From Streptococcus troglodytae (GTDB lineage Bacteria > Bacillota > Bacilli > Lactobacillales > Streptococcaceae), in contig NZ_AP014612.1 in NCBI RefSeq assembly GCF_002355215.1, forward strand, positions 1,860,001 through 1,924,000: a stretch of 64,000 nt of DNA, in the 5' to 3' direction. Numbering within the stretch: the first letter of the stretch is position 1; every line of letters begins with the position of its first letter. Shown here in pieces: positions 35,867-57,708 of the stretch. The notes below the pieces were generated by a model, which ran no database searches, was not told where the DNA came from, and was given only the letters and a program-made list of their open reading frames with translations. Made by a program: the position numbers and the translations under genes.

Positions 35867-36052
35867 CAAGCGTGATCGCTCACTCACGATTGAATAGCTA
35901 GCCACTAAAACCAACGCTGCGCCTGCTTCCTTTACTTAAGGAATTGTACTCGGGCTAAATCCTTGGAAAAAAGAGAAATGGTCTGGTGTTCATCGAACAC
36001 TGCACCCATTTCCTATTTTTCAGGCGGATTTTACGCCTTTAGTAACTTATTT

Positions 36053-42407: not shown

Positions 42408-42430
42408 CCACTAGGAGAGACTCCTAGTGG
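42408..42430 (-). terminator. Second hairpin after rplQ
   Basis: Perfect CCACTAGGAG/CTCCTAGTGG stem with a 3-nt loop, between rplQ and the main terminator. It lacks a T tract and may be a processing or mRNA 3'-end stabilising stem. Confidence 0.6.
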
Positions 42431-42496
42431 TAGACCAGAGCTAGACTAAGAATTATTATAATTCCAACATCATAACACTCAACAAAATTGATGATC

Positions 42497-46013: not shown

Positions 46014-47317
46014 CTATTCTGTAACATTCATAAAACCAACATATTTTCTCTTCAACAGATAACCTTCCAATTGCTTCATTCCTTCAATGCCTGTAGAAAT
46101 AACAATCAAAAGACTGGTACCTCCTAAAGCAACACTTGATGACAAATCAAATTGTTGTTGAGCTACAATTGGACTCAAAGCAACAAAAGCCAAGAAAATG
46201 GAACCAATCGTTGCCAATTTTTTCAGAAGTGATGAAAGGTATTCCTCTGTTTCACGACCGGGTCGAACACTAGGAATATACGAAGCATTTTTTTGTAAAT
46301 TCTCTGCTGTCTTTTCAGGGTTGACTTGCACAAAAGTATAAAAGAATGAGAAAAGTACAATGAGAACAGCATAGACTGCCATTCCTGTTGGATTGGTATA
46401 AGAAAGCCATTCTTGCAAGGTTGTCATCCAAGGAATATCACGACCATGTTGGAAAAATGGCAAAATAGTACTTGGAATAGTTGTAATAGAACTTGCAAAA
46501 ATAACAGGAATAACTCCAGCTGGATTTATCTTCAAAGGAAGATAAGAATTCGTCGGAGCACCTTGCGCCAACTTAGTATATTGGATTGGAATCTTATATT
46601 CTGCTTGTTGGACAAAAGTTGTAAAGAAAATAATGATGAGACTAGCTAAAATCAAAAGTCCCACAAAATAAAGGAATTTTTCATTTCGCTTGAACGGATA
46701 TTGACAAAATAATCTTCATAAACGGATTTGATGGTCCCTGGTATAGATGAAATAATTCCTGCAAAGATAATCATTGAAACACCATTACCAAAACCTTTAT
46801 CCGAAATCTGATCTCCTAGCCAAGTCACAATCACACTTCCTGCGGTTAAAATAGCACCAATTAAAAGAAATGTCTGGACATTTGGTGTCTTCACAAGAGA
46901 AACACTTGATAGAGCACTAAATCCTGCTGTAATACCAATAGATTGAAAAAAGGCAAGGACCAGTGAAATATAGCGTGTTGCTTGATTCAGCTTACGACGC
47001 CCGACTTCCCCTTGTTTTCCCCATTCAACAAACTTAGGTAATATATCCATTTGTAAAAGTTGAACAACAATGGAAGCGGTAATATAAGGACTAACCCCCA
47101 TGGAAAAAACGGAAAAGTTACTCATAGCATTACCACTAACAAGGTTAAGCATATTTAAAAATGGTAGATCACTTAGTTGTTCAAGACTTTTAGCATTGAT
47201 GCCTGGTACGGTAATGTGTGTACCAACACGAAATACAAAGATGATAAAAATAGTAAAGAAAATCTTTTTTCTAACACTTTTCACCTTTAGGGCGTCTTTT
47301 AAAAGTCTAAAAAACAT
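46014..47317 (-). CDS. secY: Protein translocase subunit SecY, frameshifted as read
   Basis: Ten-helix channel of the general secretion pathway. The N-terminal half (220 codons) and C-terminal half are in different frames. The break is at the A4 run 46665-46668 (coding-strand TTTT before GTGGGAC). One more T restores NSFIFVGLLILASLIIIFFT and the expected 434 aa. Essential gene, so probably a base-calling error. Start overlaps the rplO stop (TAATG). Confidence 0.93.
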
Positions 47318-49741: not shown

Positions 49742-49804
49742 ATTTATTTTTCTCCTGTTAAATTATCAAGCCGCCTGAGCGACTAGTTTTCACGGGGTAC
49801 TCAT

Positions 49805-50031
49805 GATACAAAGGGCGTCAAAAGCTAAGGTGAAAATAGGTAACTTAACAAAGAAACACAGGTTCCTAGGAAAGTTTGTCTTTTTCACACAGGCTTTAGC
49901 CTATGTTCAAATGAGTATAGTTGTTTATCCATTACGTTTTCAAGATACTGTGCAAAATAGATAAGTTGGCTTTTTTGTAAACAAACTGCTCCAACTTACT
50001 AATTTGCTTTGTCCTTTACAAGCTTTGTATC
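49805..50031 (-). repeat. GATAC-bounded structured element, long copy
   Basis: A 227-bp element between rpsH and rplF, with perfect 9-bp ends GATACAAAG (49805-49813) and CTTTGTATC (50023-50031). Inside, AAAGC...GTGAAAA (49821-49836) pairs with TTTTCAC...GCTTT (about 49882-49897), and AACTT (49842-49846) with AAGTT (49872-49876). It shares GGGCGTCAAA, ATAGG and TTTAGCC-TGTTCAA with the copy at 57139-57267. Confidence 0.7.
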
Positions 50032-50037
50032 TTAATA

Positions 50038-50435
50038 TTACCAAACGTAAGCAATAACTTCTCCGCCAATATTTTTTGTCGGGCTTCTCTATCAGTCAAA
50101 AGACCTTCAGAAGTTGAAATAATTGCAATTCCAAGTCCATTGAGAACTTTTGGAACATCTTCGCGTTTTGTATAGACACGAAGACCTGGTTTTGAAATAC
50201 GTTTTAAGCCAGTGATAACTTTTTCACCATTTTGACCATATTTAAGAAAGATACGGATGATACCCTGTTTGTCATCTTCAATAACTTCAACATTTTTTAC
50301 AAAACCTTCATGCTTAAGGATTTCAGCAATTCCTTTTTTGATATTTGATGCAGGAGCTTCAACTACGCTGTGATTTGCTTGATTAGCATTACGAATACGA
50401 GTTAAGAAGTCTGCAATCGGATCAGTCATAACCAT
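50038..50435 (-). CDS. rpsH: 30S ribosomal protein S8, frameshifted near the end
   Basis: Small-subunit assembly protein. The N-terminus ([20 protein letters not shown]) is family-typical. At the T6 run 50072-50077 (coding A6) the frame slips, replacing the conserved end with a foreign 17-residue tail stopping at 50016. With seven A's the tail is [12 protein letters not shown], stop at 50038, 132 aa. Probably a base-calling contraction. Confidence 0.93.
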
Positions 50436-50493
50436 TAATTTTTCTCCTTTTACTAGTAGTTTGAATCATTCACTTGCTAGTTATTTTTCTTTT

Positions 50494-50633
50494 GATACTT
50501 TTTTAGAATGATAAAAGATATCAGCAACCGCCTACAGCGTTTCATGACTAGGTTTTGAACCTATAACCTCAAAACTTTCTTTGATTGATAAGCTAACCAC
50601 TTATCAATCTTTTCACCCTAACGAAAAGTATCA
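50494..50633 (-). repeat. Structured intergenic region rpsN-rpsH
   Basis: A perfect 10-bp long-range stem TGATACTTTT (50494-50503) with AAAAGTATCA (50624-50633) encloses a perfect GATTGATAAG/CTTATCAATC hairpin (50583-50609) and a weaker GGTTTTGA/TCAAAACT stem near 50552-50576. It resembles a multi-branch RNA. It shares GATAC-type ends, but not internal sequence, with the elements at 49805 and 57139. Confidence 0.55.
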
Positions 50634-50661
50634 GTCTTGGCTCGCTAATGTTCGCCGATAA

Positions 50662-50692
50662 GTTTGAAAAAAGCTGAAAGCTCTTTTCAAAC
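50662..50692 (-). other. Stable hairpin at the rpsN stop codon
   Basis: A 14-position stem (13 paired) GTTTGAAAAAAGCT/AGCTCTTTTCAAAC with a GAA loop begins on the last base of the rpsN stop codon. There is no T tract, so mRNA processing or stabilisation is more likely than termination. Confidence 0.6.
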
Positions 50693-50877
50693 TACCAAGA
50701 AGCTTTTGTTACGCCCGGAATTTGTCCTTTGTATGCTAATTCACGGAAGCAAACACGACAAAGTTTAAATTTGCGGTAAACAGAGTGTGGTCGACCACAT
50801 TTTTCACAACGAGTGTAAGCTTGCGTAGAAAATTTTGCAGGGCGTTTGCTCTTAGCAACCATAGATTTTTTAGCCAA
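50692..50877 (-). CDS. rpsN: 30S ribosomal protein S14, type Z
   Basis: 61-aa zinc-binding form of S14 (C-x2-[21 protein letters not shown]). The Cys-containing paralogue is the operon copy, as usual in Firmicutes. 15 bp after rplE. Confidence 0.96.
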
Positions 50878-50892
50878 TTTAAACCTCCTTAA

Positions 50893-51435
50893 TTATTTTG
50901 CGAAAGGCATTCCAAGGCCTGTAAGCAATTCACGCGATTCTTCATCAGTATTAGCAGTTGTAACGATAACAATATCAAGACCACGAACTTTATCAACATT
51001 ATCAAAGTTAATTTCTGGGAAAATCAATTGTTCTTTCACACCAAGTGTGTAATTACCGCGTCCATCAAACGATTTTGTCGGAACTCCGTGGAAGTCACGG
51101 ACACGTGGAAGTGAAACTGTCACCAATTTATCTAAGAATTCATACATGCGTTGACCGCGAAGAGTAACTTTCGCACCGATAGCAACACCTTCACGAAGAC
51201 GGAAGCCGGCGATTGATTTCTTAGCTTTAGTAATAAGTGGTTTTTGACCTGAAATAAGCGCCAATTCAGCAGCTGCTTTTTCAAGATTTTTTGCATTTGA
51301 CACAGCATCACCAACACCCATGTTAAGGACGATTTTATCAACCTTAGGAACGGCCATTACAGATGTGTAATTAAATTTTTCTGTCAATGCAGGAACTACT
51401 TCATTAAGATATTTTTCTTTTAAGCGATTTGCCAT
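50893..51435 (-). CDS. rplE: 50S ribosomal protein L5
   Basis: 180-aa 5S-rRNA-binding protein with the family blocks [19 protein letters not shown] and [20 protein letters not shown]. Follows rplX by about 23 bp. Confidence 0.97.
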
Positions 51436-51458
51436 TATACTTCTCCTTTCCTTCGTGA

Positions 51459-51763
51459 TTAATCAAGTACTTCGCCTGATTTTTTGTTGTAACGAATTTT
51501 TTACCATCAACAAATTTATAGCCAACACGACCCGCAACTCCATTTTTATCAAGAACTTGTACGTTTGATACATGGATAGGCGCTTCCTTTTCCACGATAG
51601 CACCTTGAGGGTTCTCATTGTTAGGTTTTTGGTGTTTTTTAACAATGGCTACACCTTCAACAACAACTTTATTAATTTTTGGAAAAGCTTTAAGAACTAC
51701 AGCTTCAACACCTTTGTCCTTTCCAGCAATAACGCGAACTTTATCGCCTTTTTTTACAAACAT
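51459..51763 (-). CDS. rplX: 50S ribosomal protein L24, frameshifted near the end
   Basis: Assembly initiator of the large subunit with a KOW motif ([14 protein letters not shown]). At the T6 run 51497-51502 (coding A6) the frame slips and runs on to 51404, inside rplE. One extra A gives [14 protein letters not shown] and a stop at 51459, exactly 101 aa. Probably a base-calling contraction. Confidence 0.92.
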
Positions 51764-51899
51764 TAAGATTTTCTCCTATTCTTTCTTACGCCCTGAGGCA
51801 CCCTGACAAAATCAGGGGACTATACTCATTATCTATCGTTAGAGCTTCTTATTGTCTAACTTTGATTTTTTTGAGTACTATTTGTTTGTGAGTTTTAAA

Positions 51900-52268
51900 T
51901 TAAAGTACTTCTGGCGCCAATGACACGATCTTCATGAAGTTACCTTCACGCAATTCACGAGCAACAGGACCAAAGATACGAGTTCCGCGAGGTGTTTTAT
52001 CATCACGGATAATAACAGCTGCATTCTCATCAAATTTGATGTATGAACCATCAGCACGACGAGCACCTGATTTAGTACGAACAATAACGGCTTTCACCAC
52101 ATCACCTTTTTTAACCGCACCACCAGGAGTAGCTTGTTTTACTGAAGCAACGATGACATCACCGATGTTCGCGAACTTACGACCTGAACCGCCAAGAACT
52201 TTGATAGTCAGGATTTCGCGGGCACCACTGTTGTCAGCGACTTTTAAACGACTTTCTGATTGAATCAT
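51900..52268 (-). CDS. rplN: 50S ribosomal protein L14
   Basis: 122-aa protein starting [20 protein letters not shown], one of the most conserved ribosomal proteins. A 136-bp gap before rplX holds a small CCCTGA/TCAGGG hairpin near 51811-51830. Confidence 0.97.
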
Positions 52269-52294
52269 TTAAGTTTTTCTCCTTTCAGGCTTAA

Positions 52295-52555
52295 TTAAAT
52301 AATGACAGCTTCTTCAACCACTTCAACAAGACGAAAACGTTTTGTTGCTGAAAGCGGACGAGTTTCCATGATACGAACAATATCGCCTGCTTTTGCAGTA
52401 TTGTTTTCATCATGAGCCTTATATTTCTTAGAGTAGTTAATACGTTTACCATAGACTGGGTGGTTACGTTTGGTTTCAACTACAACTGTGATTGTTTTGT
52501 CCATTTTATCAGACACAACACGACCAACTAGCGTTCTACGTTGTTTACGTTCCAT
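52295..52555 (-). CDS. rpsQ: 30S ribosomal protein S17
   Basis: 86-aa OB-fold protein, [20 protein letters not shown] then [20 protein letters not shown]. Between rpmC and rplN. Confidence 0.97.
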
Positions 52556-52575
52556 TAGATTTCTCCTTTCCCAAT

Positions 52576-52785
52576 CTATTCTTTCATTTCTGCTTGCACG
52601 GTTTTAACACGGGCAATTTGCTTTTTCACTTCGTTCAAACGGGCAGTTTGATCAAGTTGACCTGCTGCAGCTTGGAAACGAAGATCGAAAAGTTCTTTCT
52701 TAAGTTCGTTTTCTTTCTTAGCAAGTTCTTCTTGAGAAAGACCACGAAGCTCTTTAACAAAATCTTTAATTTCTTGAAGTTTCAT
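52576..52785 (-). CDS. rpmC: 50S ribosomal protein L29
   Basis: 69-aa helical protein ([20 protein letters not shown]) located near the peptide exit tunnel. 9 bp after rplP. Confidence 0.97.
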
Positions 52786-52794
52786 GTTTTCTCC

Positions 52795-53208
52795 TTATTC
52801 TGCTTCACGTTTTACGAATTTAGTTTTAACTGGTAATTTGTGGCTTGCAAGGCGAAGAGCTTCACGGGCAACTTCTTCTGGAACATCAGCAATTTCAAAC
52901 ATGATTTTTCCACGTTTAACTGGTGCAACCCAGCCTTCTGGAGCACCTTTCCCAGATCCCATACGTACACCGATAGCCTTAGCAGTGTAGGACTTATGAG
53001 GAAAGATTTTAATCCAAACTTTACCACCACGTTTCATGTAACGCGTCATAGCGATACGAGCAGCCTCAATTTGACGATTAGTAATCCAGTGGCTAGTTGT
53101 AGCTTGCAGACCATATTCTCCAAAAGCTACTTTCTTACCACCTTTAGCTTCACCACGCATTTTTCCACGGAATTCACGACGGTGCTTAACACGTTTAGGT
53201 ACTAACAT
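52795..53208 (-). CDS. rplP: 50S ribosomal protein L16
   Basis: 137-aa protein beginning [20 protein letters not shown], needed for tRNA accommodation. 3 bp after rpsC. Confidence 0.97.
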
Positions 53209-53211
53209 TTG

Positions 53212-53865
53212 TTATTTCCCTCCTTTAGTGTTTTTACGAGCTGGAAGAATTTCGCCACGGTAAATCCAAACTTTAACACCAAGCTTACCATAAGTCGTAT
53301 CAGCTTCTTCCCAAGCATAATCGATATCCGCACGAAGTGTGTGAAGTGGAACAGTTCCTTCTGAATATCCTTCGCTACGTGCGATGTCCGCACCATTTAA
53401 ACGACCCGATACTTGAGTTTTAATTCCTTTAGCTCCTGCACGCATAGTGCGTTGGATTGCTTGTTTTTGAGCACGACGGAAAGCAACACGTTGCTCAAGC
53501 TGACGAGCAATATTTTCACCAACAAGGTGAGCATCAAGATCTGGAGATTTGATCTCAACAATATTAATGTGAACTTGTTTTCCAGTCAATTTGTTAAGTT
53601 GAGTACGAAGAGCATCAACATTTGCTCCGCCTTTACCGATAACCATACCAGGTTTTGCAGTATGAAGGGAAACATTTACCTTATTGACTGCACGTTCAAT
53701 TTCAATAGTTGAAACTGCAGCGTCAGCCAACTCTTTTTGAATGAATTTACGGATTGCGAGATCTTCATGAAGGTAATCCGCGTATTCTTTTTCAGCATAC
53801 CATTTTGCATCCCAATCACGAATGATACCGACACGCATACCAATTGGATGTACTTTTTGACCCAC
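53212..53865 (-). CDS. rpsC: 30S ribosomal protein S3
   Basis: 217-aa protein with a KH domain ([18 protein letters not shown]) and C-terminal S3 domain ending [13 protein letters not shown]. At the mRNA entry site of the ribosome. 12 bp after rplV. Confidence 0.97.
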
Positions 53866-53877
53866 GATTTTACCTCC

Positions 53878-54222
53878 TTATTTTTCTTCTACAACTACAG
53901 TAACGTGAGTTGTACGTTTATTGATTGGTGAAGCTGAACCCTTCGCACGCGGACGGAAACGTTTCATCGTTGGTCCTTCGTTTGCGAATGTTTCAGATAC
54001 GACCAAATTAGCTTTTTCCAAACCAAAGTTATTTTCTGCATTTGCGACAGCAGAGTTAAGAGTTTTCTCAACAATACGAGCAGCTTTGTTTGGAGTGAAT
54101 TTCAAGATTGCGATTGCGTCAGCAACGTTCTTACCACGAATAAGATCAAGCACAAGACGTGTTTTACGAGGTGAAACACGGACTGTACGAGCCATTGCTT
54201 TAGCTGAAGTAATTTCTGCCAT
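53878..54222 (-). CDS. rplV: 50S ribosomal protein L22
   Basis: 114-aa protein lining the exit tunnel; the hairpin loop region ([20 protein letters not shown]) where macrolide-resistance changes occur is intact. 16 bp after rpsS. Confidence 0.97.
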
Positions 54223-54238
54223 TGTGTCCTCCTCCTAA

Positions 54239-54517
54239 TTAACGACGTGTTTTCTTATCATCAGTTGCGTGACCTTTGTAAGTACGAGTCGGTGCAAATT
54301 CACCAAGCTTGTGACCTACCATGTCCTCTTGAATGTAAACAGGAACATGTTTACGTCCGTCATAAACTGCGATTGTGTATCCAATGAAACTTGGGAAAAT
54401 CGTTGAACGACGTGACCAAGTTTTAATTACTTTTTTCTTTTCGTCATTAGCTTGAGCCTCGATTTTTTTCATCAAATGCTCATCGACGAAAGGGCCTTTT
54501 TTAAGACTACGTCCCAT
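54239..54517 (-). CDS. rpsS: 30S ribosomal protein S19
   Basis: 92-aa head protein, [20 protein letters not shown] and ending with [20 protein letters not shown]. The 100-bp gap to rplB contains the perfect ATCTGTATT/AATACAGAT hairpin (54558-54578). Confidence 0.97.
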
Positions 54518-54557
54518 TTTGTAATTTTCTCCTTTAAATATAGTACCACAGCGACCT

Positions 54558-54578
54558 ATCTGTATTAAAAATACAGAT
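54558..54578 (-). other. Intra-operon hairpin between rplB and rpsS
   Basis: Perfect 9-bp stem ATCTGTATT/AATACAGAT with an AAA loop and no T tract; probably an mRNA structure within the S10 operon. Confidence 0.55.
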
Positions 54579-54617
54579 TACCGAGCTGGCGGATGTTTAA
54601 GTTTTTAAGTGATTAAT

Positions 54618-55451
54618 CTATTTTTCGTTACGACGACGAATAATAAGTTTGTTAGATTTAGCTTTCTTGTTACGTGTTTTAAGACCAAGCGCAGGTTTAC
54701 CCCAAGGAGTAGATGGCGCTTTACGTCCAACCGGTGCCTTGCCTTCACCACCACCGTGTGGGTGATCGTTAGGGTTCATTACAGAACCACGGACTGTTGG
54801 ACGAATACCCTTCCAACGGCTGCGTCCTGCTTTCCCAAGATTAACGAGTCCATGTTGTTCATTTCCAACAACACCAACTGTAGCACGACAAGTACCAAGA
54901 ACCATACGAACTTCACCTGATTGCAGACGAACAAGAATGTACTTTCCTTCTTGTCCAAGCACTTGAGCAGAAGCTCCAGCTGCGCGGATAAGTTCAGCAC
55001 CTTTACCTGGTTTCAATTCGATATTATGTATAAATGTACCAACTGGAATATTAGCAAGCGGAAGAGCATTCCCCACTTTGATATCAGCTTCAGGGCCCGA
55101 AATGATACGTTGGCCTACTTCAAGACCTTTTGGAGCAACAATATAAGATTTGACACCATCAGTATAGTGAATAAGCGCAATGTTAGCTGAGCGATTTGGA
55201 TCGTATTCAATAGTCTTAACGACTGCTTCAACGCCATCTTTATTACGCTTGAAATCAATCAGACGGTAATGACGCTTGTGTCCGCCGCCTTGATGACGAA
55301 CAGTAATGCGACCGTTATTGTTACGACCAGCCTTGTTTTTCAATGAAACAAGCAACGATTTCTCAGGTGTGCTTGTAGTAATTTCAGCGAAATCCAAAGA
55401 AGTCATATTACGACGGCCATTTGTCGTTGGTTTGTAAACTTTAATACCCAC
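54618..55451 (-). CDS. rplB: 50S ribosomal protein L2
   Basis: 277-aa protein of the peptidyl-transferase neighbourhood. Family signature [19 protein letters not shown], including the invariant His, is at about residues 223-241. Basic C-terminus. 17 bp after rplW. Confidence 0.97.
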
Positions 55452-55468
55452 GTTATTTCCTCCTTAGA

Positions 55469-55768
55469 TTATTCTGCCTCAGCAGCTGCAAACAAGTCAA
55501 TTGTCTTAGAATCAGCTGTAAGAGTGATGATAGCTTTTTTCGTTTTACTTGTGAAACCTGTATAACGACCAACACGCTTTTGCTTTGGTTTTACGTTTAC
55601 TGTACGGACACTCGCCACTTTGACACCATCAAAAGCTGCTTCAACAGCTTGTTTAATTAAAAGTTTATGAGCACGAGTGTCAACCTCAAATGTATACTTA
55701 CCTTCTTCAAGAGCATGCATTGATTTTTCAGTAACAACAGGTTTTTTGATTACATCGTACAAATTCAT
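55469..55768 (-). CDS. rplW: 50S ribosomal protein L23
   Basis: 99-aa exit-tunnel protein that docks SRP and trigger factor ([20 protein letters not shown]). One-base overlap with rplD. Confidence 0.97.
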
Positions 55769-56391
55769 TATGCAAGAACCTCCTCGATATTAGAGATTGC
55801 TTCTTTAGTAACAAGAAGTTTGTCGCTGTTTACGATATCAAGAACACTTGCAGTTGCTGCGGTAGCAACTTTTACATTTGGAAGATTACGAGCTGACAAC
55901 TCAGCAGCTTGATTGCCTTCTTCAAGAATAACAAGTACTTTTGAATCAACATTAAGTGCAGCAAGTACTGTAGCAAATTCTTTGGTTTTTGGAGCTTCAA
56001 AAGAAAGAGCATCTACAGCTACAAATTTTTCATCAGCAACTTTTGCTGAATAAACTGACTTTAAGGCGAGGCGGCGAACTTTTTGTGGAAGTTTATAGCC
56101 ATATGAACGTGGAGTTGGTCCAAAAACAACACCACCACCACGCCATTGCGGTGCGCGGATAGAACCTTGACGTGCACGTCCAGTTCCTTTTTGACGCCAT
56201 GGTTTACGTCCACCACCTGATACTGCTGAACGATTTTTAACCGCGTGAGTACCTTGGCGAAGATTAGCACGTTGACTAATAATAACATCAAATACTACTG
56301 ATTCATTTGGTTCGATACCGAAGATAGCGTCGTTAAGTGTTACTTCACCAGCTTCTTTACCAGTTTGGTCAAATAGTTTTACGTTTGCCAT
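55768..56391 (-). CDS. rplD: 50S ribosomal protein L4
   Basis: 207-aa protein whose extended loop ([19 protein letters not shown]) reaches the exit tunnel. In enterobacteria L4 also represses its operon; that mechanism is not established here. 24 bp after the restored rplC stop. Confidence 0.97.
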
Positions 56392-56415
56392 GTTAACTGA
56401 TTTCCCCTTTCTTTA

Positions 56416-57040
56416 TTATTTAGCAGCTTTAACTGCTGATTTGATGATGATAAGAGACTTCTTAGCACCTGGCACATTACCCTTGATAAGGATAACATTT
56501 TTTCTGGAACAACTTGAACGACTTCAAGGTTTTGAATCGTCACGCGGTTACCCCCCATACGTCCAGCAAGGTTTTACCTTTGAATACACGGTTAGGTGCT
56601 ACAGGTCCCATTGAACCTGGACGGCGATGATAACGAGAACCGTGAGCCATAGGACCACGTGATTGACCATGGCGTTTAATAGCACCTTGGAAACCTTTAC
56701 CTTTAGTTGTACCAGTAACATCAACAACATCACCAGCCTCGAATTGTTCGACTGTAATTTCTTGTCCAACTTCTAAACCTTCAATGTTTTTAAATTCACG
56801 AATGAAGCGCTTAGGAGCTGTGTCGGCTTTTGCCACATGGCCTTTGGCAGGTTTGTTGCTCAGCACTTCACGTTTATCATCAAAACCAACTTGAACTGCT
56901 TCGTAACCGTCTGTTTCAAGAGTCTTAACTTGAAGCACAACATTTGGAGTTGCTTCGATGACAGTAACAGGGATAAATTCACCAGATTCAGTGAAGATTT
57001 GAGTCATTCCCACTTTTTTCCCTAAGATTCCTTTTGTCAT
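56416..57040 (-). CDS. rplC: 50S ribosomal protein L3, two frameshifts as read
   Basis: Early-assembly protein of the large subunit. The start [20 protein letters not shown] and the [16 protein letters not shown] loop are intact. The frame then breaks at the T4 run 56572-56575 and again at the T6 run 56498-56503. Adding one base at each restores [25 protein letters not shown] and the end AVKAAK, giving exactly 208 aa with a stop at 56416. As read, the protein is truncated at 166 aa. Probably base-calling contractions. Confidence 0.92.
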
Positions 57041-57069
57041 GAGAAAATATTTCCTTTACTTAATTATTT

Positions 57070-57130
57070 AAAAAGTTTTTTATGAGCGTTTTTTAGGCTC
57101 AAAAAGTTTTTAACGAGCGTTTTTGTGCTC
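57070..57130 (-). repeat. Two tandem ~30-bp repeats upstream of rplC
   Basis: Adjacent units 57070-57100 (31 bp) and 57101-57130 (30 bp) both read AAAAAGTTTTT, two or three bases, GAGCGTTTTT, then GCTC. Each can form a small GAGC/GCTC hairpin. They lie between the rplC start and the structured element that follows rpsJ. Confidence 0.7.
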
Positions 57131-57138
57131 AAAATTAA

Positions 57139-57267
57139 GATACTAAGGGCGTCAAACTCAATGTAAACATAGGAAAATCGATGACGACTCGACGAGCCTA
57201 AGCGATTTTATCTTTTTACGTAGAGTTTAGCCCGTGTTCAATTCCGCTTGAACTGGTTCTTAATATC
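57139..57267 (-). repeat. GATAC-bounded structured element, short copy
   Basis: A 129-bp element starting 3 bp after the rpsJ stop. Ends GATACTAAG (57139-57147) and CTTAATATC (57259-57267) are complementary at 8 of 9 positions. A 14-position stem with one mismatch pairs 57154-57167 (AAACTC...TGTAAA) with 57215-57228 (TTTACG...GAGTTT). AAAATCG (57174-57180) pairs perfectly with CGATTTT (57203-57209). Related to 49805-50031. Confidence 0.7.
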
Positions 57268-57579: not shown

Positions 57580-57708
57580 CTTTTCTCCTCTCGTCTATTT
57601 AAAATAATAGGCTAGCTCCACAAGAAAACCGACAAGCTTTTGCGTGGCAATGCAACCGAGCGTGTCGCAACCTCTTGTATCAAAGCTAAAAGCTGATTTT
57701 TACAGCAC
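57580..57708 (-). other. 5' leader of the S10 superoperon
   Basis: About 130 nt from the expected transcription start to rpsJ. It contains GCTG/CAGC around a short A/T loop and the GC-rich stretch ACACGCTCGGTTGCATTGCC, unlike the AT-rich surroundings. No known riboswitch or r-protein leader was recognised. Confidence 0.5.

Follow-up and report, generated by a model that had tools for sequence, protein, structure and literature searches.

A dispersed hairpin repeat of about 115 nucleotides in Streptococcus, found at fixed sites in the ribosomal-protein operon and as a candidate split ribosome-binding site at other genes

We analysed a stretch of 64,000 nucleotides (nt) of the Streptococcus troglodytae genome (hereafter the window; positions 1860001–1924000 of NZ_AP014612.1, a genome of one contig and 2,097,874 bases), in which two elements lie between genes of the S10/spc ribosomal-protein operon, one in the rpsH–rplF gap (49805–50031) and one in the rpsJ–rplC gap (57139–57267). 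Both are built from a hairpin unit of ~115 nt that recurs through this genome and the genus, changes its sequence while keeping its pairing, and occupies the same operon gaps in many genomes. In one class of copies the hairpin separates a Shine–Dalgarno (SD)-like sequence from a housekeeping start codon. The explanation that we consider probable is that the unit is an ancient module, probably mobile at one time, that selection on its fold retains at fixed sites and that serves as a structured spacer in mRNA, and in the start-codon class as part of a split ribosome-binding site.

A repeat family in S. troglodytae and across the genus

When the rpsJ–rplC element was compared with its own genome by BLAST, 33 pieces were returned at E ≤ 10, 20 of them (the element itself included) at E < 0.05. 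The 18-base pattern TTTGACGCCCTTNGTATC, with up to two mismatches allowed, was present at 26 sites, against none for the reversed pattern. A covariance model, R1, built from 19 units (alignment A1; 120 positions, 28 pairs), gave 68 matches in the same genome at E ≤ 0.1, of which 66 were below 1e-5. These 66 units fall at 40 places, as 27 singletons and 13 groups of two to six, and in the arrays the whole unit, which begins GAACAC and finishes GTATCTT, is repeated head to tail. With respect to neighbouring genes, 20 of the 40 places are co-directional sense, 6 antisense, 10 convergent, 2 divergent, 1 mixed and 1 undetermined; this tally used a crude open reading frame (ORF) finder, four of the six antisense cases being rRNA-spacer copies with spurious ORFs, and no conclusion rests on it.

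The search of other streptococcal genomes with R1, in which up to 18 candidates per genome were scored, returned many further copies: matches at E ≤ 0.01 were obtained in 193 of 197 Streptococcus genomes, with a best E mostly of 1e-15 or lower, and the other four have no match at this cut-off. The repeat family that an earlier note on this DNA had proposed from the two window elements is therefore real, and its spread through the genome and the genus rules out a chance likeness of the two copies. Among six named or metagenome-assembled genome (MAG) loci, the scanned stretch holds strong R1 matches in S. mitis SK579, S. oralis and S. sanguinis, and no strong match in S. equinus, S. sciuri and one MAG.

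Outside the genus, 17 of 51 genomes of other Streptococcaceae match at E ≤ 0.01 (best 2e-9), more weakly than within it, and among 69 genomes from other families 7 match at E ≤ 1e-5, all of which belong to a single family. Several of the 13 weak out-of-genus matches that we read sit in tandem arrays of ~122-nt units with a AAAAAGATAA/TTTCCTATTTTT core, and because this core is shared, distant relatives of the family are likely. In other Lactobacillales (L486–L509) we also observed tandem ~122-nt hairpin units with a AAAAAGATAA/TTTCCTATTTT core and different ends, TTGAGCTG ... CGCATCTT, apparently a sister family. A blastn search of the phage and plasmid collections with one unit gave no match, so that spread by phages or plasmids is unsupported.

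Selection on the fold

The unit forms a single long interrupted hairpin. In both window elements the predicted fold is more stable than those of dinucleotide shuffles (z −3.1 and −3.9), and none of 200 shuffles is as good. Two-sided compensation is present in 16 of 23 predicted pairs among the 19 units. The larger test used the operon alignment (A2), which holds the best 150 of the 175 operon matches described below. In its 133 distinct copies 97.0% of cells pair, compared with 35–49% when the partners are slid, and two-sided changes occur in 846 cells, compared with 54–101 in the slid controls; none of 500 shuffles reaches either the pairing value or the two-sided-change value. Such structural alignments, having been fitted to the model, are biased in its favour, and it is the gap to the slid controls that is persuasive. 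Covariation is thus overwhelming, and the compensatory change and selection on a hairpin that had been claimed from two copies are borne out. Hairpins of the start-codon class covary as well (92.6% paired against 30–54% slid), and their mean fold energy is −38.8 kcal/mol, against −26.2 kcal/mol for shuffled sequences.

Three stretches, AAAAAGATAAA, CCTAG and TTTCCTATTTT, are kept while the stems around them vary, which leaves an AGAU/CCUA internal loop. In the operon set the mispairs track the transcript strand, with G–U to A–C ratios of 15:8 in sense copies and 23:39 in antisense copies (Fisher p 0.028, from cells that are not independent), and this favours RNA as the molecule that folds. We regard it as almost certain that the repeat is a genuine, old and genus-wide family under strong selection for its fold.

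SD–hairpin–AUG order at housekeeping genes

At 14 of the 40 S. troglodytae places the element ends no more than 2 nt from a housekeeping start codon; the hairpin is preceded by AAAGGA or a near variant, and the space that follows it is too short for an SD. The genes are purH, purD, dnaK, dnaJ, serS, uvrA, accC, thrS, rmlB, hisA, parC, galE, carB and that for purine nucleoside phosphorylase. Other places include ones where the element precedes a normal SD and ones where it is flanked by the two halves of a second repeat. The sequence context was displayed for 36 of the 40 places, that is, for all except three rRNA-spacer copies and the rpsH–rplF pair of the window. Gene names were read by eye from N-termini, and NCBIfam models fit each of ten proteins checked from this genome and the wider set described next (PrmA, dihydrolipoamide acetyltransferase, DnaJ, PurB, GlyS, ParC, RmlB, PurH, HisA and DnaK). 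For reference, a normal SD precedes 13 of the 15 ribosomal-protein genes of the window.

The same arrangement recurs across genomes. The pattern TTGGTATCTTAATTATG, with at most one mismatch, was found in 67 of 98 genomes, with 103 matches listed and two control matches in all. We examined 90 of the 103 listed matches (6 of the 13 left out were from S. troglodytae). An R1 match ends at the ATG in 86 of these 90 places and an ORF of at least 80 codons opens at 89; the pattern itself ends in ATG, and its construction therefore fixes both the ATG and the absence of an SD from the final 14 nt, but not the long ORFs or the position of the distant SD. By eye the places represent 23 gene families and one short ORF. 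The gene prmA accounts for 28 of them, all with AAAGGA 130–132 nt away. An SD-like hexamer is present between −155 and −105 in 76 of the 90 places, compared with 19 and 18 places for two windows of the same size that lie further upstream, and the distance from the distant SD to the AUG is about 104–145 nt.

Orthologous starts with and without the element differ in their nearby SD. Among 30 dnaK loci, 29 with a readable dnaK start and 16 with a readable dnaJ start, an SD between −20 and −4 was present at none of six filled dnaK starts and at all 23 empty ones, and at none of nine filled dnaJ starts and five of seven empty ones; filled starts were recognised by the tail motif of the element, so that part of this SD window is fixed by definition. 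At one filled locus (L393) an older AAGAGGA lies directly 5′ of the element's own GAAAGGA.

Fixed sites in the ribosomal-protein operon

We searched the rpsJ–rpsE stretch of 96 genomes, S. troglodytae excluded, with a match cut-off of E ≤ 0.001. All 175 matches fall in three gaps, and 81 of the 96 genomes have at least one, so the sites of the S. troglodytae elements are occupied in relatives too; the 15 operons without a match include one stretch of 613 bases (L293). The rpsJ–rplC gap holds 27 matches, all sense, the rpsN–rpsH gap 64 antisense and 26 sense, and the rpsH–rplF gap 44 antisense and 14 sense. Filled and empty rpsJ–rplC gaps both occur among the genomes. Three other wide gaps, rplB–rpsS, rplN–rplX and rplF–rplR, contain no match in 95 genomes. 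Their median widths are 101, 78 and 75 nt, with some above 300 nt, and tolerance of length alone therefore does not account for the pattern of sites.

Copies at the same site in different genomes are more alike (mean identity 0.735) than copies at different sites within one genome (0.637). For 141 of the 150 aligned copies the nearest neighbour comes from the same site in the same orientation, compared with 37.5 expected; with a ceiling on identity this number falls to 132 at 95%, 93 at 90% and 68 at 85%. We conclude from this likeness that the copies are mostly old and were inherited in place.

How the element may act, and alternatives

If the module folds on itself in mRNA, it would form a self-closing structured spacer, and a transcript could then carry more than 100 extra nt without functional loss. 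In the start-codon class, where the SD-like AAAGGA stands at the 5′ foot and the module ends at the start codon, folding would bring the distant SD and the AUG to working distance. That this class acts as a split ribosome-binding site in this way appears to us rather likely, given the order of its parts and the missing nearby SD. For the operon copies of the window, in the rpsJ–rplC and rpsH–rplF gaps and upstream of a normal SD, our guess is that they would provide intercistronic mRNA structure for stability, processing or coupling. Past mobility of the repeat is plausible.

Several observations weigh against this explanation. The SD and AUG are both open in only 20 of 77 predicted folds, a low share and one modestly separated from that of shuffled sequences (22 of 308). 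The exterior SD–AUG distance in predicted folds has a median of 4 nt in both real and shuffled sequences and does not separate them, and in some folds the SD is taken up by pairing with the element's tail, an outcome that would be more in keeping with a switch. Mispairs in the start-codon class are G–U and A–C in a ratio of 79:76, lacking the excess of G–U that selection at the RNA level predicts. In two of the three operon gaps the copies are predominantly antisense. The agreement between neighbours and sites fades to 47 of 150, compared with 38.9 expected, under an identity ceiling of 80%; in the long run the signal tied to a site disappears or is renewed. The fitted alignments and the definitions of filled starts and of the TTGGTATCTTAATTATG places, as given above, also count here.

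A bolder version of the same explanation would make the module older than the genus and would have the AGAU/CCUA loop dock a trans-acting factor that tunes many housekeeping genes together, their ribosome-binding sites being split by dispersed copies. This we regard as speculative and somewhat doubtful.

The copies could instead be parasitic repeats without a host role, resembling miniature inverted-repeat transposable elements (MITEs) or BOX, with a mobilising enzyme that needs the hairpin, perhaps as single-stranded DNA, and with the start-codon copies reflecting insertion preference and tolerance. Dispersed copies, head-to-tail arrays, partly inverted ends and nesting in another repeat all agree with this, as does the equality of G–U and A–C in the start-codon class, and published repeats of similar style are interpreted as parasitic (PMC3049150). 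Yet unconstrained fossils should lose their pairing, whereas the old fixed-site copies change sequence and keep it. The matches also avoid three of six wide operon gaps, and the absence of a nearby SD at filled dnaK starts would break an essential-type gene unless it were compensated. For these reasons we consider it unlikely that the copies are purely parasitic.

A role in RNA processing or stability seems less likely still. Here an endoribonuclease or RNA-binding protein would recognise the hairpin, for example through the AGAU/CCUA loop, and cut or protect the mRNA, and genes with an abutting AUG would be translated from a processed, near-leaderless mRNA. The conserved letters of the internal loop amid varying stems, the copies between cistrons and in the 23S–5S spacer, and the strand bias of the operon mispairs (with the dependence among cells noted above) are what such an element might display, but it offers no reason why 76 of the 90 places have an SD-like hexamer at the 5′ foot, and antisense copies present a different RNA. 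The three fixed operon gaps might suggest a regulator specific to ribosomal-protein synthesis, such as a ribosomal-protein binding site in the S10/spc operon, a very improbable reading given that most S. troglodytae places are at unrelated genes and that 15 of 96 operons have no match. The first of these facts rules out an element special to ribosomal operons, and together with the antisense copies in two of three gaps it leaves the earlier idea of a device that adjusts ribosomal-protein ratios unsupported.

Should the split-site explanation be correct, a major bacterial genus would rely, for translating many of its core genes, on a large RNA hairpin that separates SD from AUG, a layout for which neither gene finders nor expression models make provision. 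The family would also be a clear case of a mobile-type repeat retained for its fold, and natural genes would make the permissible distance between SD and start codon directly testable.

Relation to known repeats and split sites

The earlier note had left room for a known streptococcal intergenic repeat. Neither Rfam nor the pneumococcal BOX element provides one that fits. No Rfam 15 family was found at the units at the gathering threshold in the window, and eight loci searched at E ≤ 10 gave nothing credible at units. BOX (boxA–boxB–boxC) is likewise a dispersed folded repeat with inverted ends, and by eye has a similar stretch in its 3′ arm. Its boxA core, in the form of the BOXA1R primer core, has no match in S. 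troglodytae with up to two mismatches and is present in 93 of 197 genus genomes, and R1 matched BOX itself in none of 20 BOX-core loci. The two R1 matches obtained there were both in one locus (L126), outside or beside BOX; in that locus, at ~1399–1740, BOX either directly adjoins a partial copy of the ~115-nt repeat or is contained in it. BOX is therefore rejected as the identity of the family.

Some repeats of Streptococcus suis, the BOX-type/RepSU1 elements, could be members of the family, judging by description alone (PMC3049150). As described there they are dispersed repeats of ~100 nt whose modules form arrays and in some cases are nested between two larger ones; the parts of that paper that we consulted describe neither genus-wide fixed orthologous sites nor an SD–hairpin–AUG class for them. 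RUP and SPRITE of Streptococcus pneumoniae are also short dispersed streptococcal hairpin repeats and are set apart, by description, in being nearly confined to S. pneumoniae and S. mitis (PMC3049150). Croucher et al. (2011; PMC3049150) interpret their repeats as parasitic and almost absent from other streptococci. If our explanation is right, it also suggests that the wider class reaches further than the published view allows, in which such repeats scarcely occur outside pneumococcus, S. mitis and S. suis. Of the features of a MITE, possible terminal inverted repeats, the GATAC-type ends, are seen at both window elements and not at each unit; no target-site duplication was clearly readable by eye when filled and empty rpsJ–rplC and dnaK sites were compared.

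For the arrangement of SD and AUG the closest likeness that we found is in phage T4 genes 38 and 25, where intervening structure reduces the effective SD–AUG distance from 22 to 5 nt and from 27 to 11 nt (PMC3014915). The start-codon class shares with these split sites an SD displaced upstream, structure between SD and AUG and no nearby SD, to which the selection effects described above apply. The T4 cases are single genes with spacings of 22 and 27 nt, experimentally shown (PMC3014915), whereas those in Streptococcus span ~104–145 nt, involve a dispersed repeat at many genes and are known from sequence. In open-licence papers, without their supplements, we found no description of the family or of an SD–hairpin–AUG class in Streptococcus, which is weak evidence of absence; a search there for the EFAR repeats of Enterococcus gave nothing of use.

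The window elements and their surroundings

The shared motifs and the internal stems that the earlier note described in the two window elements are present; GGGCGTCAAA, ATAGG and TTTAGCC-NN-TGTTCAA occur in both. Its matching terminal repeats hold for the rpsH–rplF element, which has GATAC at 49805–49809 and the complement at 50027–50031 as its outer ends. In the rpsJ–rplC element the pair GATAC (57139–57143) and ATATC (57263–57267) is imperfect. Because the recurring unit is ~115 nt long, the GATAC-type outer ends are only partly the ends of a single unit.

In the rpsJ–rplC gap the unit itself lies at 57133–57248 on the minus strand, sense to the operon and upstream of the normal rplC SD (R1 96.2 bits, E 2.9e-18; fold z −3.9). 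A small 5′ hairpin, GTTCAA...TTGAAC (57236–57253, minus strand), appears in its minimum-energy fold; the 3′ arm overlaps the start of the unit, and a similar arm is seen by eye at other copies. The rpsH–rplF element is not one unit but two in opposite orientation. The first, at 49799–49917 on the minus strand, is sense to the operon (R1 104.6 bits, E 3.2e-20), and the second, at 49921–50037 on the plus strand, is degenerate and inverted relative to it (R1 43.2 bits, E 6.7e-6). A further unit, at 35937–36052 on the plus strand, fills most of the 23S–5S rRNA spacer, antisense to the rRNA (R1 64.2 bits; rRNA ends from an Rfam scan), and has four equal-scoring copies elsewhere in the genome.

The second repeat family consists of larger repeats with inverted ends of GATA(C/T) type, TTTTCCGCCGTGGTGA ... 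CCACCACTTAAGGAAAATATC, and also adjoins dnaK and dnaJ in relatives (for example L367, L371 and L375); arrays of the ~115-nt unit are nested between halves of its elements. In the rpsN–rpsH gap of the window an inverted-ended element at 50494–50632 (strand not assigned), with ends TGATACTTTT...AAAAAGTATCA as read on the minus strand, was recognised by eye, has no R1 match and is apparently a member of this second family.

The ORFs of rpsH (50016–50435), rplC (56540–57040) and secY (46014–47317, in two frames) look broken or off-frame near their ends, which gives the impression of one-base indel errors in the assembly. To judge from the ORF list, the rpsH frame seems to owe its odd end to one of several such frameshifts. 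The rpsJ–rplC gap also holds, at 57061–57130 (and in L136–L165), one or two GAGC-NN-AAAAAACGCTC hairpins followed by AAAAACTTTTT; they are found in genomes without the repeat as well and are possibly an attenuator or a separate leader. Rfam places an S10-Clostridia leader upstream of rpsJ, at 57591–57691, and an L17 downstream element at 42408–42481.

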